Source: a virus
Length of the DNA: 40,626 bases
IMG/VR virus record: IMGVR_UViG_3300030107_005857
Coordinates: 1-40,626 of that record
Reading direction: 5' to 3' (one strand)
In this document: positions 9,078-27,580 of the stretch, in pieces
Layout of the letters: each line of letters starts with the position of its first letter
Numbering within the stretch: the stretch's first letter is position 1
Position numbers and translations under genes: made by a program
The notes under the pieces: generated by a model
Databases searched by the model: none
Seen by the model: only the letters and a program-made list of their open reading frames with translations
What the model was told of the DNA's origin: nothing

Positions 9078-10379
9078 TTATCGAATGTCTTCCATAGATT
9101 CACTTCCCATTCCCTGCATAACAGATGGCATTCCTCTCATCATCATTTGCATTTTTAAATATTCTGATAGATTTCTTGCAGTCGCTGAATCTGCTGCAGC
9201 ATTGGAAGGAATAGGATTTTGCATATCTAAACTTTCACCTCTGCTTAGCAGTCCTTTTAACTTTATAAGCTCAAGTGTTTTCTTAGCTTTAGACTCAATA
9301 CTATCTTCAATACTTTGCTCTAAAGCTTGTGCCTCTTGCTTTAACATCATTGTTGGATTTGCTCCAAATTCAGGACTAATCATACTCCCTTTGTATATTT
9401 CAGGATTAGCCATTCTTTGATCAATGCTTTCTCCTAATGCCTGATTTTGCTCATCGGCAAAACCCTGCGGAGCTTGTGGAGGGCCTACAAAATCACCATC
9501 TTGATAGCCAGCTAATCCGCCTTCTTGGTAAAAGTTACCGCCCTTACCCCAGTCTAATGGTATTTCTCTCCCAGAAGGGCTAATGTCGGCCGTGTAACCC
9601 GGCAATCCCTTCCTTGTCAAACTGCCTTTTACTTCTGGATAATCAACACGTAAATCACGTGGAAATTTTCCAGTGTCGTGATATATCTCCCAAGCACGTT
9701 TTTCACTAATTGGGAACTTCTCACCGGCTTTTTCTATATAATGCTGTGCACCTTCAACCCGTTTTTGCTGACCTTTAAGTGCCCTTGCTTTTTGTACCTT
9801 CCCCGGAATTTTCCTAGCAAATTTACCAGCAGTAGCCGCTTGGCCTGCAATCGGTATTGCCGCCGCCCCTGATAAACCCATTAGCGTCAATGCCTCTTTC
9901 CTTGATACAGGATCACCTGCAAGCAATGCTTCTCCGCCATATAAAGCAGTATTAATTAAATCAGGAACTATACCAAGCCCCGGAGCCATACCAGCAACAT
10001 CAAGCCCACTATGAATATAATCCATTACCGAACCGCCATTCTTATAACCCATCATAGGTTTAACTTCTCCACCACCATACATTGGCTTTAAGTTTTTTAA
10101 TGTATTCATAACCATTAAATTATTAATAGAATCGTGAGCACCTTCTTTTGGTTTGTTATTCATATATTCCAATTTTTCCACTCCTATTGCTTCTACTCCA
10201 TCTGGAGGAACGTATATTTCATTATTTGTTAATATTGCATTTTGATAATTTTCCATATCTCCATTATCAGTATTAAACATACCTGCCACCTGTTTCATCC
10301 AAGGGTATGTCTTACTAGCACCATAATTTAAAATATAGGAACCTACAGGTAGTTTTGCTGTCCTAGTATCTGTTGCCAT
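9078..10379 (-). CDS. Virion-associated protein with a pretoxin-like hydrophobic segment, 433 aa
   Basis: ATG at 10379 touches the endolysin stop and the gene ends 2 bp before the portal start. Residues 124-192 (SGLDVAGMAPGLG, then LSGAAAIPIAGQAATAGK) form a Gly/Ala-rich hydrophobic block strikingly like the pretoxin segment that precedes toxin domains in polymorphic toxins. Residues 195-280 are a basic then mixed domain (EKAGEKFPISEKRAWEIYHD). YGGG, YKNGG, YQEGG and YQDGD motifs occur at residues 101, 112, 284 and 292 and recur in the ejection-type protein at 33.7-35.5 kb. The C-terminus is helical and Met-rich. A portal-associated or ejected membrane-active role is inferred; no enzymatic domain is proven. 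Confidence 0.6.
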   Translation of the reverse strand: MATDTRTAKLPVGSYILNYGASKTYPWMKQVAGMFNTDNGDMENYQNAILTNNEIYVPPDGVEAIGVEKLEYMNNKPKEGAHDSINNLMVMNTLKNLKPMYGGGEVKPMMGYKNGGSVMDYIHSGLDVAGMAPGLGIVPDLINTALYGGEALLAGDPVSRKEALTLMGLSGAAAIPIAGQAATAGKFARKIPGKVQKARALKGQQKRVEGAQHYIEKAGEKFPISEKRAWEIYHDTGKFPRDLRVDYPEVKGSLTRKGLPGYTADISPSGREIPLDWGKGGNFYQEGGLAGYQDGDFVGPPQAPQGFADEQNQALGESIDQRMANPEIYKGSMISPEFGANPTMMLKQEAQALEQSIEDSIESKAKKTLELIKLKGLLSRGESLDMQNPIPSNAAADSATARNLSEYLKMQMMMRGMPSVMQGMGSESMEDIR

Positions 10380-14314: not shown

Positions 14315-15304
14315 ATGTTAAATAATATACATACATTCAATCAAGTTAACGATTCTAATAATATTACCGATCAAGTTCAGGTTATACAAAATAGTCATGC
14401 TATAGAAAATAACTTAAACTTTGATAATGTTTATGATAACAAAATAAACCCATTTACAGAAATTGTGAAGGTTCCTTTAAGTACTAGTGACAATGGATAT
14501 TCTAAGGCTTTTTCTGTAAGGTTGCCTGAATTAAATGATAGAGAAGTTGGTATAGTAAAAAAGGAATATATGGCCGTATCTAACTTAGATATTCATAAAG
14601 TTGGACAAGCTATTAGAGATCAATCTAACTTACAATGGGAACATTTAAAATGTTTCTTTGACGGTAAGGTATTTAAAAATCAGTATATCTGTAAAGATTC
14701 TGGCTTAGAAATGCAAGTACCTAATATGCAAGTTGGCGATACTATAGGAATTGTTATGGAGGAGCAGAATAGTTATGATAGTTCAGTTAGTGCAGGTATT
14801 TTCTTTAGTTTTTTAAGGTTACTTTGCACTAATGGAATGACCTCTAAAAAATATGGTTTTGGTCATACGTTTAAACATACTCAGAATAATATTGACTGGG
14901 AGGATAGTATCTACAGATCAGTAAATTTACTTAATGGACAAACACCAACAGCTAGGTTAAATCAGTTTGTTGGAGCCTGCGGTAATTTACAGAAATCAAT
15001 TGATTTTCATGATCTTGATATACTTACCCATAGCAGAAAATATATCAGAAGCTTACCTACTACGCAGTATGGACAAATCATTAGAAATATGATGATTTCT
15101 AGGGAATCTAATGGCGATCCTAAATACGGCAAGTCAGGTGAATTTACTGCATGGGACTTGCTGAACTCAGGAACTGAGATATTAACCCATAAAAACAAAC
15201 CTACTCAGGGAAATATGAGAAATAATATCATAATGACTGATGGAATGTTACAATATGGATCAGATAAATCAGATCAAGAAACAATCAGGGAATCTTTTAA
15301 TTAA
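14315..15304 (+). CDS. DUF932 (phage/plasmid-like) protein, 329 aa
   Basis: ATG at 14315 follows AAAGGACA. The protein has the DUF932 core: a beta-rich middle ending in SAGIFFSFLRLLCTNGM (about residues 159-175), followed by FGHTFKHT and a helical C-terminal half. DUF932 proteins are widespread in phages and plasmids, often early and highly expressed, but their biochemical role is unsettled. The first 60 residues are Asn-rich and variable. It is the first rightward gene, has its own promoters and ends at a strong terminator (15330), so it forms a single-gene transcription unit; that suggests abundant product needed early. Confidence 0.85.
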   Translation: MLNNIHTFNQVNDSNNITDQVQVIQNSHAIENNLNFDNVYDNKINPFTEIVKVPLSTSDNGYSKAFSVRLPELNDREVGIVKKEYMAVSNLDIHKVGQAIRDQSNLQWEHLKCFFDGKVFKNQYICKDSGLEMQVPNMQVGDTIGIVMEEQNSYDSSVSAGIFFSFLRLLCTNGMTSKKYGFGHTFKHTQNNIDWEDSIYRSVNLLNGQTPTARLNQFVGACGNLQKSIDFHDLDILTHSRKYIRSLPTTQYGQIIRNMMISRESNGDPKYGKSGEFTAWDLLNSGTEILTHKNKPTQGNMRNNIIMTDGMLQYGSDKSDQETIRESFN

Positions 15305-15329
15305 CAACTAAAGAAAAGGGAAAAGATAG

Positions 15330-15356
15330 GGGAGCCGAAAGGCTCCCTTTTTTTTT
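15330..15356 (+). terminator. Strong intrinsic terminator after the DUF932 gene
   Basis: GGGAGCC, a GAAA tetraloop, GGCTCCC and then nine T's form a textbook rho-independent terminator 26 bp after the stop codon. It separates the first early unit from the rest. Confidence 0.95.
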
Positions 15357-15392
15357 ATTTAAAATTATTTTATATATTTTTTTTATATTCTG

Positions 15393-15526
15393 TGCACGTA
15401 AGTAGATTATGCACGTTAGAAGTATCTATGTAAATTATATTATTTTTATAAGTTGTTGCACGTTAGTAGATATATATTAAATTGCACGTAAGTACTTATA
15501 TTTTATAAGTTTATGCACGTTAGAAG
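15393..15526 (+). repeat. Five TGCACGTWAGWAG repeats in an intergenic region
   Basis: Copies start at 15393 (TGCACGTAAGTAG), 15410 (TGCACGTTAGAAG), 15457 (TGCACGTTAGTAG), 15483 (TGCACGTAAGTAC) and 15514 (TGCACGTTAGAAG), all in the same orientation with start distances of 17, 47, 26 and 31 bp. They sit in a 423-bp gap (15305-15727) that otherwise holds a terminator and two promoter candidates. The GC-containing core stands out in AT-rich DNA. Iterons or clustered operators are likely. Confidence 0.8.
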
Positions 15527-19659: not shown

Positions 19660-19786
19660 GGGGGATTATAGCTTTGAGTCAAAAATACAATAATAACAAC
19701 AACGACAATGTGGAACACATAAAGCATTGTCAAATGTATGTTTGTAAATATAGAATAAATATTTTTGATAAAAAAAGCAATCCCCC
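19660..19786 (+). ncRNA. Candidate structured RNA A (multibranch)
   Basis: GGGGGATT (19660-19667) pairs with AATCCCCC (19779-19786), and GCTTT (19671-19675) with AAAGC (19774-19778), leaving a 3-base ATA bulge: a 13-bp closing stem. Inside are GACAATG/CATTGTC (7 bp) and AAATAT/ATATTT (6 bp) hairpins. The segment fills the gap between the 123-aa gene and the 19800 promoter. A TTG-started 40-codon frame (19674-19796) runs through it, with Asn-rich low-complexity sequence and GGGGG as a possible ribosome site, so a coding alternative remains. A regulatory 3' UTR or processed small RNA is inferred. Confidence 0.4.
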
Positions 19787-23153: not shown

Positions 23154-23651
23154 ATGAAGGTGTGTGCTAGTTGTAAGGTTTCCAAACCTAAAAGAGAATT
23201 CTATATAAACAGAGCAAAGAAAGATGGTCGTCAGTATAGCTGTATCGAGTGCCAAAAAGACTATCATAACAATAAATGGTATGTAAAAAAGAAGGAAGAA
23301 AGGGTAGAACAAATTCGTCAAAACAAACTCCATCGCAAAAGGGTTAGTTATCGAATGATTTTAAAAGATTATTTTTCTAAGGGGTGTATTGATTGTGGTG
23401 AAAAGGACATCAGGGTATTAGAGTTTGATCATGTTCGAGGCGTAAAAAAAAGATTTAAACACAGAAGAACTGAAGGAGTTTCTTATTTGGTGAGATGTGG
23501 TTATTTATGGTCAACAATTAAAAAAGAAATAGATAAATGTGAGGTTCGTTGTTGTAATTGTCATAGGCTAAGAACCTTTAAGCAGTTTAATTATTTAGAT
23601 GATATGAAAGATATTTACAAAGAATATTTAAATAATTTGGAACAAAGTTAG
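23154..23651 (+). CDS. HNH endonuclease, 165 aa
   Basis: Residues 1-40 carry an N-terminal zinc motif (C4, C7, C30, C33). The C-terminal HNH domain shows CIDCG (C78, C81), VLEFDHVRG (D92, H93), EIDKCEVRCCNCHRLRT (N135, H137; C133, C136 ligands). All core HNH residues are in place, so it should be an active metal-dependent nuclease. It sits alone behind its own extended -10 promoter and ends at the 23639 promoter, like an inserted homing-type gene; a packaging or host-DNA cleavage role is the alternative. ATG has GGGGTG upstream. Confidence 0.88.
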   Translation: MKVCASCKVSKPKREFYINRAKKDGRQYSCIECQKDYHNNKWYVKKKEERVEQIRQNKLHRKRVSYRMILKDYFSKGCIDCGEKDIRVLEFDHVRGVKKRFKHRRTEGVSYLVRCGYLWSTIKKEIDKCEVRCCNCHRLRTFKQFNYLDDMKDIYKEYLNNLEQS

Positions 23652-23667
23652 AATTAATGCGTATAAC
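23639..23667 (+). promoter_or_regulatory. GGAACW-class promoter
   Basis: GGAACA (23639-23644), 17-bp spacer, TATAAC (23662-23667), 27 bp before the 81-aa gene. The -35 block lies in the HNH 3' codons. The unit it starts leads into the nuclease/SSB genes. Confidence 0.7.
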
Positions 23668-23694
23668 AACTAAATAACAGATTAAAGGAATAAA

Positions 23695-23940
23695 ATGTTT
23701 TCACAATTAGAAGAATTAAAAACCCTATTATCGAAAGAGATTCATTACGCAGAAGACGATTTTGATAAAGATACAAATAATCATTATTATTTAGGTAAAA
23801 GGGATGGATTAGAAAAAGCCCTTAATTATATAATAAGGATAGAAGCTAAAGAATATAGTGACTTAGATAAGTGGGCTAAAACACAAATGAAAGGAAAGGA
23901 TAACCATGAACATAGAGATAGGAACAATGCAGGACATTAG
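23695..23940 (+). CDS. Hypothetical protein, 81 aa
   Basis: AAAGGAATAAA precedes the ATG. The protein starts MFSQLEELKTLLSKEIHYAE, is helical and charged, and ends in a His/Asn-rich tail. First gene of the 23639 unit; overlaps the next gene by 35 bp. No family recognised. Confidence 0.65.
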   Translation: MFSQLEELKTLLSKEIHYAEDDFDKDTNNHYYLGKRDGLEKALNYIIRIEAKEYSDLDKWAKTQMKGKDNHEHRDRNNAGH

Positions 23941-24109
23941 TATTCATGATGTAAAGAACGCTAAATTTGACTTGGTAACGAAGATGTCTTCGGATTATGT
24001 GAAAGATAAATATTATACCACATTAACAATAAGAACAAAAGATAATAATGTTGTGGATATTAATATTTTCTCAAGTAATAAAGATATGCTAAAGAAATTA
24101 ACTAAATAA
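23906..24109 (+). CDS. Hypothetical protein, 67 aa
   Basis: ATG at 23906 has GGAAAGGA upstream inside the preceding gene. The protein is beta-rich (starts MNIEIGTMQDISIHDVKNAK, later YYTTLTIRTKDNNVVDINIF), suggestive of a small sheet or OB-like fold. Last gene before candidate structured RNA B. Confidence 0.6.
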   Translation: MNIEIGTMQDISIHDVKNAKFDLVTKMSSDYVKDKYYTTLTIRTKDNNVVDINIFSSNKDMLKKLTK

Positions 24110-24114
24110 ATAAC

Positions 24115-24191
24115 TAAGGGCGGGTTTCTTAGGTCTGGCTTTACCCTTTTTGCCCAGACCAACCACAACTACACCCCACATCCCGCCCTTA
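24115..24191 (+). ncRNA. Candidate structured RNA B (10-bp closing stem)
   Basis: TAAGGGCGGG (24115-24124) pairs perfectly with CCCGCCCTTA (24182-24191). Inside, GGTCTGG (24132-24138) pairs with CCAGACC (24154-24160) around a 15-base loop, leaving a CA-rich single strand (24161-24181). The block is far more GC-rich than its surroundings and fills the gap before the Cas4-like gene, which lacks a normal ribosome site. No T-run follows, so it is not a terminator. It could be a 5' UTR regulator, a small RNA or a DNA-level origin or recognition hairpin. Confidence 0.5.
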
Positions 24192-24209
24192 AAATTTTAA
24201 ATAAATACT

Positions 24210-24938
24210 ATGATAAATATTGAAAAAATTTATAAAGATTGGCTAAAAGCAAGAAATACTTTACATTTTAAGAAAAGATATCAAGGACATGAAAAATGGT
24301 TTCATGCTTCTAGTTCTGGAATGTGTTTGCGAAAACATTATTTTCAACACGTTGCTGAAGTGGAACCAAAAGAAGTAGATGAGGAAACTTTAAAGTTGTT
24401 TAGGTTAGGTGATCTAGTACATGAAGATATTCAACAAGCCTTAACTGATTATGCTTTGGCAAATGGATCACAAATTCTTATTGAAAAAGAAATTAGACTC
24501 CCTGAAGTAAATGTTAGAGGGTTTTTAGATATGCTATTAATTGACGATGGTGCTCTGGTAGATATTAAGACTTGCAATGCTTGGAAATGGAAAACATTAT
24601 TTGGTCGTAATCCCGACCCTAATCCTGCTGACAATTACAATTTACAGCTTGGTACATATGGGTGGTGGTATGAAGAAGAATATGGGAACAAATTAAAAAA
24701 ACTAGCGTTATTATATTATAATAAAGATAATTCTAGAATGAGAGAAAAAATTATTCCAGTATCTTATATTGATAAAGCAAAAGAATATTGGCGTAATGTA
24801 AATAAGATTTTTGAAACAGGTAATCCACCAATAGAATTAGGAGTTGCACCTGCATATAAATGGGAATGTAACCCTAAATACTGCAACTTTTATCAAGTCT
24901 GTGGTGGTGGATACAAAGAGAAAGGAGTCGATTTATGA
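24210..24938 (+). CDS. Cas4/RecB-like exonuclease with Fe-S cluster motif, 242 aa
   Basis: Cys39 (SSSGMCLRKHYF) plus C220, C225 and C231 (WECNPKYCNFYQVCGGG) give the four ligands of a Cas4/AddB-type 4Fe-4S cluster. Nuclease residues are H71 (LGDLVHEDI), D107 (RGFLDMLLI), D118 and K120 (LVDIKT), and Q146 (YNLQLGTYGW), matching RecB-family motifs in order. It is probably a DNA end-processing exonuclease working with the SSB-like protein downstream in replication or recombination. There is no nearby CRISPR array. ATG at 24210 has no ribosome site; the upstream hairpin region may matter. Confidence 0.85.
   Translation: MINIEKIYKDWLKARNTLHFKKRYQGHEKWFHASSSGMCLRKHYFQHVAEVEPKEVDEETLKLFRLGDLVHEDIQQALTDYALANGSQILIEKEIRLPEVNVRGFLDMLLIDDGALVDIKTCNAWKWKTLFGRNPDPNPADNYNLQLGTYGWWYEEEYGNKLKKLALLYYNKDNSRMREKIIPVSYIDKAKEYWRNVNKIFETGNPPIELGVAPAYKWECNPKYCNFYQVCGGGYKEKGVDL
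24685..24713 (+). promoter_or_regulatory. Possible intragenic GGAACW-class promoter
   Basis: GGAACA (24685-24690), 17-bp spacer, TATTAT (24708-24713) inside the Cas4-like gene. The match is good, but it lies 220 bp from the next start and may be chance. Confidence 0.25.
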
Positions 24939-25345: not shown

Positions 25346-25816
25346 ATGTCTGATTATGGAAATGCTTACTATCCACTTGATTTGGAATCGGATAGAGTGT
25401 CTATACCTAAGGGGCGATATACCGCATCTATCGTCAGTTTAGAACTTAATAAAAATATAAAATTTGGTAGGTACATATCAGATGTATTTAAACCGGAATA
25501 CCTTATTGATGTTTCTGAGCATCCTGAATATGAAGATGTCGTTGTCAAAGATGACGGCATTTTCAGGTATAAGGAAATTGATGGATATAAATATGATCCT
25601 AAGAAAAATTGGGGTTTTGCTAAGTTTTTATCTATAATGAAAATACAAAAACTTAATGGGCAACTACCTTTTTTATATTTAAAAGATATTAATAATACAA
25701 AGGTATTAATTGATGTTTATATGAAAACTTTTTTTAATGATATTGATTCTGAAGTTCGCTACCCTGTAGCAAGGGCAATACAATTATTAGAAAAGCAAGA
25801 AGACGTTCCTTTTTAA
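25346..25816 (+). CDS. Single-stranded DNA-binding-like protein, 156 aa
   Basis: The protein has a predicted OB-fold core (PKGRYTASIVSLELNKNIKF, then strands around YISDVFKPEYLID and KVLIDVYMKTF) and ends with EKQEDVPF, like the acidic-aromatic C-terminal tip (DDDIPF) that SSBs use to recruit partner proteins. Placement directly after the exonuclease module fits. Function as the phage SSB is a good but not proven call. The ribosome site is weak (GATAAGTA). Confidence 0.65.
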   Translation: MSDYGNAYYPLDLESDRVSIPKGRYTASIVSLELNKNIKFGRYISDVFKPEYLIDVSEHPEYEDVVVKDDGIFRYKEIDGYKYDPKKNWGFAKFLSIMKIQKLNGQLPFLYLKDINNTKVLIDVYMKTFFNDIDSEVRYPVARAIQLLEKQEDVPF

Positions 25817-26996: not shown

Positions 26997-27138
26997 GAGA
27001 TTAGGAATTAGAGAAATTATTAGAATTTATGAAAAACTTCATAAAGAAGAAAAGATAGGTCAAAATGGGTCAGCATTTAAAAGGATGAGGACATTACAAA
27101 CCATTTTGAAGAATAGAAAAAAAATGGGTTGGGTTTAA
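26980..27138 (+). CDS. Small basic protein, 52 aa
   Basis: ATG at 26980 lies inside the previous gene behind GAAGGAATT. The peptide begins MATNHKRLGIREIIRIYEKL and remains Lys/Arg-rich, with NGSAFKRMRTLQTILK. Its helical, basic nature suggests DNA binding. Its last codons form the left arm of structured RNA C. Confidence 0.6.
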   Translation: MATNHKRLGIREIIRIYEKLHKEEKIGQNGSAFKRMRTLQTILKNRKKMGWV

Positions 27139-27212
27139 GCAAGACATATTATTCTAAGGAAGAAGTATGACAAATGAAAAGCGTTGGCTCGCAAGACTGC
27201 TTAACCTAACCC
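27126..27212 (+). ncRNA. Candidate structured RNA C / leader region
   Basis: GGGTTGGGTTTAAGCA (27126-27141) pairs with TGCTTAACCTAACCC (27198-27212) with one mismatch and one bulge. Inside are CATA/TATG plus TTCT/AGAA (27145-27169 region) and GCG/CGC hairpins. A ribosome site (AAGGA) and ATG at 27167 also open a 16-codon frame to 27217, starting MTNEKRWLAR, with codon use unlike the neighbouring genes. The region may be a leader-peptide or structured RNA control of the next gene at 27234. Confidence 0.4.
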
Positions 27213-27233
27213 TTTAAACATAAGGAGATCAGG

Positions 27234-27446
27234 ATGCCTGATTTTAAAGTAAAAGACAATAGCTTTAAGCTATGGAAAAATAAATATAAAGAGGATGGAG
27301 ATAAAAAACCCGATTATACTGGTAATGGTATGTTCGATGGCTCCACAAAAGATGTTGCTCTTTGGATCAATAAAGATAAAAATGGTAACAGATACTTGTC
27401 AGGACAACTAAAAGACCCTAAAGGTAAGGATGAAAGTCCTTTTTAA
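27234..27446 (+). CDS. Small DUF736-like protein with SSB-type C-terminus, 70 aa
   Basis: ATG at 27234 follows AAGGAGATCAGG. The pattern NSFKLWKNKYKEDGDKKPDY, then VALWINKDKNGNRYLSGQL, resembles DUF736/SSB-like OB-fold proteins, and the end DESPF resembles an SSB tip. It may bind single-stranded DNA or compete with SSB for partners. It is followed 25 bp later by a strong terminator, so it ends the main early operon. Confidence 0.6.
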   Translation: MPDFKVKDNSFKLWKNKYKEDGDKKPDYTGNGMFDGSTKDVALWINKDKNGNRYLSGQLKDPKGKDESPF

Positions 27447-27470
27447 GGGATAGAATGACTCTATGTAAAA

Positions 27471-27498
27471 TAACAGGCCTAAGGGCCTGTTATTTTTT
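27471..27498 (+). terminator. Intrinsic terminator closing the main early operon
   Basis: TAACAGGCC and GGCCTGTTA form a 9-bp stem with a TAAG loop, followed directly by six T's. Located 25 bp after the DUF736-like stop. Confidence 0.95.
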
Positions 27499-27580
27499 AT
27501 AAAATATTTAATCGATACTTATATCAAAAAAATAATATTATGGCTGTAAACGCTAAATTAGAGGGGGTTTTTTTCAGTAG

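Follow-up and report, generated by a model that had tools for sequence, protein, structure and literature searches.

Positions 24,115–24,191 (+ strand) of the 40,626-base viral record analysed here, which we call the window in its whole length, are a real structured RNA element. It represents a new structured RNA family of a known broad kind, the intercistronic phage mRNA element. Its two stems are scaffolds of free sequence, and the strands that they display are kept. What appears unusual, as judged from sequence comparison, is that the displayed strands are retained while topology and gene context vary. In the window the early genes lie on the + strand from ~14 kb to 28 kb and the structural genes (portal, head, terminase) on the − strand. 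The element lies in a gap of 100 bases between the stop codon of a 67-aa ORF (24,109) and the ATG of a Cas4-like nuclease gene (24,210). Its parts and neighbours are as follows.

23,906–24,109, + strand: 67-aa ORF, in every case the immediate upstream neighbour of the element where this precedes cas4
24,115–24,191, + strand: whole structured RNA element; z −4.75, covariance-model match of 43.9 bits, covariation in 32 distinct relatives
24,115–24,124, + strand: P1 5' arm TAAGGGCGGG, partner of 24,182–24,191; double changes in 8 of 10 P1 pairs in relatives
24,132–24,138, + strand: P2 5' arm GGTCTGG; double changes in 7 of 7 P2 pairs in relatives
24,139–24,153, + strand: apical loop CTTTACCCTTTTTGC; the loops of relatives are rich in U and usually contain UCC or CUCC
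24,154–24,160, + strand: P2 3' arm CCAGACC, pairing with 24,132–24,138; covariation
24,161–24,181, + strand: J2 unpaired strand AACCACAACTACACCCCACAT, 21 nt without any G; core CACAACTAC at 24,164–24,172
24,182–24,191, + strand: P1 3' arm CCCGCCCTTA; covariation
24,192–24,209, + strand: stretch between P1 and the start codon; in relatives almost devoid of G as far as the Shine-Dalgarno sequence
24,210–24,938, + strand: Cas4-like PD-(D/E)XK nuclease gene (phrog_1706/1990, PF12705), follows the element
25,346–25,816, + strand: two genes downstream, gene for an SSB-like OB-fold protein that ends in DVPF; previously unannotated

The earlier note had described a perfect 10-bp closing stem and an inner 7-bp hairpin in a 100-bp gap, too GC-rich for its surroundings and without a terminator tail, and our analysis bears out each of these points. 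The architecture is P1 of 10 bp, J1 of 7 nt, P2 of 7 bp, a loop of 15 nt and J2 of 21 nt, and GC content is 0.53 versus ~0.30 in the surrounding region. The minimum free energy is −28.2 kcal/mol (z −4.75), and none of 200 dinucleotide shuffles was equally stable. No terminator-like site (a GC stem with a U run) was found at 23,600–24,300. No pseudoknot was detected; there are two nested hairpin stems only. Hidden coding was rejected, as length differences within the main family are not multiples of three and a conserved start codon is lacking (judged by eye). A minus-strand MCSCG-like short reading frame present in some relatives was also discarded; in the window it is not an ATG frame.

A search with the downstream Cas4-like nuclease gave 64 viral loci. 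The element stands directly before the nuclease gene in 49 of them, 48 recognized by the covariance model and one (L044) by hand; three of the remaining loci begin at the nuclease gene and 12 have no element at that place. P1 starts 5 nt after the stop codon of the 67-aa ORF in the window and 5–11 nt after it in 32 of 33 relatives. Convincing copies number one per genome record searched, and none of these records has two. Against Rfam release 15 the element was unmatched up to E 1 for the window and up to E 5 for ten relatives, and no relative of the Cas4-like nuclease was present in 50,697 deposited phage records. Among cellular genomes the only match came from the Candidatus Marinimicrobia MAG UBA7303, in which one contig, L125 (DKQR01000126.1), belongs to a phage of this group. 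This is a weak hint at Marinimicrobia as host, and a search of 245 Marinimicrobia genomes gave no other real match.

Strong evidence for the fold comes from covariation. Among 32 distinct aligned sequences, 15 of the 17 stem pairs have changes on both sides, so the stem arms are co-conserved, as the compensatory-change check proposed in the earlier note was meant to reveal. Double-change cells number 105, compared with 25 in shuffles (none of 500 as high) and 3–15 when the pairing partner is slid. Standard pairs make up 96.8% of pair cells versus 78% in shuffled and 37–52% in slid alignments. It is important to note that this alignment was fitted to the structure and is biased in its favour; hand-anchored stems give the same exchanges. 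In the model alignment (A3) there are 24 G–U cells versus 4 A–C cells, which points to RNA of the plus strand. Thus the structured RNA suspected earlier has both compensatory changes and G–U tolerance behind it, and these aligned sequences strongly support that the element works as a + strand RNA fold.

Unpaired parts of the element are also conserved. The J2 core CACAACUAC is retained across clades whose stem letters differ, and the distant phages L200, L201 and L203 have it as well. In the L036 clade (L036–L039, L042) the core is replaced by AACGUCAUG. Because such other unpaired-strand sequences occur, no single fixed recognition sequence is universal. Against a strand background of 10.5% C and 18% G, J2 in relatives contains 38% C and 6% G; between P1 and the Shine-Dalgarno sequence the values are 34% C and 0.4% G (226 nt). 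The mean predicted probability of being unpaired is 0.84 for the J2 core over 18 representatives and 0.99 in the window.

Regarding the ribosome-binding region, the Cas4-like gene of the window lacks a Shine-Dalgarno sequence, as had been noticed before, but most relatives have AAAGGA at this position. The Shine-Dalgarno region has a predicted mean unpaired probability of 0.62, versus 0.51 at other early genes. We rejected a leader of the thermometer or riboswitch type that sequesters the Shine-Dalgarno sequence: the ribosome-binding site is predicted to be accessible, and no co-evolution links the Shine-Dalgarno sequence to the loop or to J2. Loop pairing with the own Shine-Dalgarno sequence was no better than with those of other clades (P 0.86), and the same comparison for J2 gave no signal (P 0.97).

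In phages without the element before cas4, hairpins of the same style are found before neighbouring genes. They precede the HNH gene in L048, L049, L051 and L055 and an 81-aa ORF in L051 and L055; in L051 the stem of the latter hairpin is 14 bp long, and its 30-nt loop lacks G and includes CCCACAACUAC. L057/L058 and L183–L189 carry several such hairpins. In L057 (2,400–2,790), L183 and L186–L189 up to three successive long hairpins stand ahead of one small ORF, and one of these hairpins has ACGUCAUGU on the inner stem's 5' side, a motif that the L036 clade has on the 3' side. In the distant L200, L201 and L203 (Cas4 36–37% identical) the element follows the SSB-like gene, directly so in L201, where that gene ends in DDDLPF, and J2 is UUACUCACAACUACAA. 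A search of viral contigs with this 16-mer found it in seven more (L206, L210, L216, L228, L229, L231 and L232; the L206 type plus L232), inside a P1 of ~12 bp. There the 16-mer is in one hairpin loop and a second hairpin, UUGCUCCGCAUCAGCAA, follows, i.e. the motif order is reversed. The seven contigs contain the 16-mer by construction, because the string itself was the query; the finding is that a long-stemmed hairpin encloses it ahead of a ribosome-binding site. In L206 the upstream ORF runs into the element: its last codons form the 5' arm of P1 and its stop codon is internal, so that ribosomes translating this ORF would unfold the structure.

In nearly all placements P1 ends 7–28 nt before a start codon, L214 being ambiguous and the middle hairpin of L057 an exception, and this spacing could simply mirror compact gene packing. 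Motif-level homology of the displaced elements is provisional, drawn as it is from short strings and weak model scores, and the deeper links between clades, which have the same basis of short motifs and weak scores, are equally provisional. Several candidates were discarded: L067, L069, L070, L075 and many of L205–L232 are chance pattern matches, mostly in coding DNA; the fold is not formed in the MT835672 match (L240); and the G269 model match (L241) is a host terminator-like hairpin.

The window has other structures of its own. A second long-stemmed hairpin at 27,126–27,218 precedes a ~70-aa SSB-like gene at 27,234 and is found in most relatives examined. We did not count it as a sibling RNA, because in relatives the conserved GUUGGCU spells codons of the upstream ORF (..WLAKKDLN-stop, by eye). 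The hairpin overlaps the C-terminal codons of this ORF there, so codon and structure constraints are mixed. A large nested hairpin of ~125 nt with the closing stem GGGGGATT/AATCCCCC lies in a gap at 19,660–19,785 and is possibly the 'RNA A' of the earlier note. Blocks of early genes end in terminator-like hairpins with T runs at 27,462–27,501 and 15,298–15,367. In the long gap at 15,380–15,526 there are several iteron-like direct repeats around TGCACGTTAGNAG, possibly a replication origin or repressor sites; L114 has a similar array of TGCACGTA near 9,113–9,182.

Our preferred reading, which is a tentative one, is that the element is a conserved structured RNA of the early (replication/recombination) transcript that acts in cis and sets translation of the next gene. 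The exposure of a G-poor strand beside the ribosome-binding site, on stems whose own sequence is free, suggests a docking site in cis for a factor that binds single strands. The stems display a G-poor, C/A-rich single strand with the core CACAACUAC and a U-rich loop usually holding UCC, in a hairpin that almost always abuts the ribosome-binding region of the following gene. Binding of the factor to the displayed strand would then set translation initiation of that gene, here the Cas4-like nuclease. As a guess, the factor may be the SSB encoded by the phage, or else the ribosomal protein S1, for which the strand would be a standby site. Ribosome standby sites such as that of tisB are similar in that structure holds a single strand open upstream of the ribosome-binding site (PMC7708055). 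The tisB ribosome-binding site is sequestered (PMC7708055), whereas that of our element is predicted to be accessible, and the likeness concerns computed accessibility. Moreover, ribosomes that terminate on the 67-aa ORF, 5 nt before P1, might unwind this stem, which would couple the ORF to the nuclease gene. The fold of the 67-aa protein gave no significant match in PDB or BFVD; ribosome-hibernation factors recur at E 0.2–1, which is too weak to count as evidence.

Control of nuclease translation, as put forward in the earlier note, is possible. Nuclease-only control is nevertheless too narrow, because related hairpins directly precede other genes in other phages. With such varied downstream genes and P1 7–28 nt before the start codon, a portable cis-acting element beside the ribosome-binding site fits better than a Cas4-specific switch.

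The main rival is a plain processing or stability hairpin, that is, an RNase III-type site or a barrier protecting the 5' end of the downstream cistron, with no ligand. RNase III sites of phages such as T7 consist of a lower stem, an asymmetric internal loop and an upper stem. Our element resembles them in architecture, but its internal loop is very large and lopsided. Placement before different genes would suit a portable stabilizer, and the stems are kept while their sequence is free. However, such a hairpin needs neither a conserved CACAACUAC strand nor G-starvation, and we regard this explanation as possible though on the unlikely side.

The phage SSB could instead bind the element as an autogenous translational operator, as with T4 gene 32. 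That operator is a structured nucleation site with a less structured flank reaching the ribosome-binding site (PMC535899). The element and the T4/RB69 gene 32 operator are alike in anatomy, a folded RNA followed by a less structured stretch into the ribosome-binding site (nearly G-free in our relatives), and in location within a phage replication/recombination operon encoding an SSB. An OB-fold SSB is encoded in the same cassette here: for the 25,346–25,816 product the best PDB match by Foldseek was PrgE (E 5.5e-4), and other SSBs matched at E 0.1–0.3. The differences are that the element has two nested stems and no detected pseudoknot, that its strand is G-free and C/A-rich while the operator has UUAAA repeats, and that it stands before cas4 (window lineage) or after ssb (L200, L201, L203), not before ssb. 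Placement after the SSB-like gene, and not before cas4-x-ssb, does not fit a simple SSB operator. Because its location differs from that of the gene 32 operator, we have not filed the element under this type and consider such a function decidedly doubtful.

A quite improbable alternative is a Rho utilization (or Rho-trapping) site in the ribosome-free gap, attenuating the distal half of the early operon. Like rut sites, the element is a C-over-G bubble in untranslated RNA: its excess of C over G is the highest of any 60-nt stretch of the locus in 24 of 26 cases (window z 5.6), and it lies between stop and start codon. The primary site of Rho prefers YC dinucleotides and rut sites are unstructured. 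In contrast, the element has two conserved stems, and YC dinucleotides are depleted in J2 (80 versus 111 expected). The strand is of the AC and not the YC type, which argues against a Rho primary site, so the Rho explanation is only partly supported: the C-over-G bubble is there, the YC content and low structure are not. The antitermination RNAs nut, put and EAR gave no match either, the element being unmatched among Rfam families.

An action in trans, with the exposed J2 of a small or antisense RNA pairing to a second transcript, would account for a conserved G-free strand that resembles a seed region. It is very improbable, as the genomes share no complementary site (the best matches do not exceed those of shuffled motifs and are at unrelated positions) and the element adjoins the ribosome-binding site in cis. 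A DNA-level hairpin, also offered in the earlier note and taken here as an origin, recombination or packaging site, is scarcely credible: the stems exist in DNA too, but their compensatory changes and their G–U over A–C tolerance on the + strand (24:4) disfavour it, and placement tracks ribosome-binding sites.

Beyond our preferred reading of a cis-acting element that sets translation of the next gene, a wider and unlikely proposal is a new, wide phage RNA class defined by display and not by fixed topology. Its members would carry CACAACUACA and CUCC/GCUCC on interchangeable stems, in swappable order (as in the L206/L232 type), before the ribosome-binding sites of different genes, and would recruit a single shared RNA-binding factor, from phage or host, through which the recombination operon is coordinated.

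The structured regulatory RNAs that uncultivated phages encode are scarcely catalogued, and this element, with no Rfam entry, is an unusually clear case of covariation. If it is true that the genes share a recruitment site, the element would be a compact handle on the timing of recombination proteins in such phages. It would also be a clean model of RNA elements that keep their displayed strands while their stems change freely.
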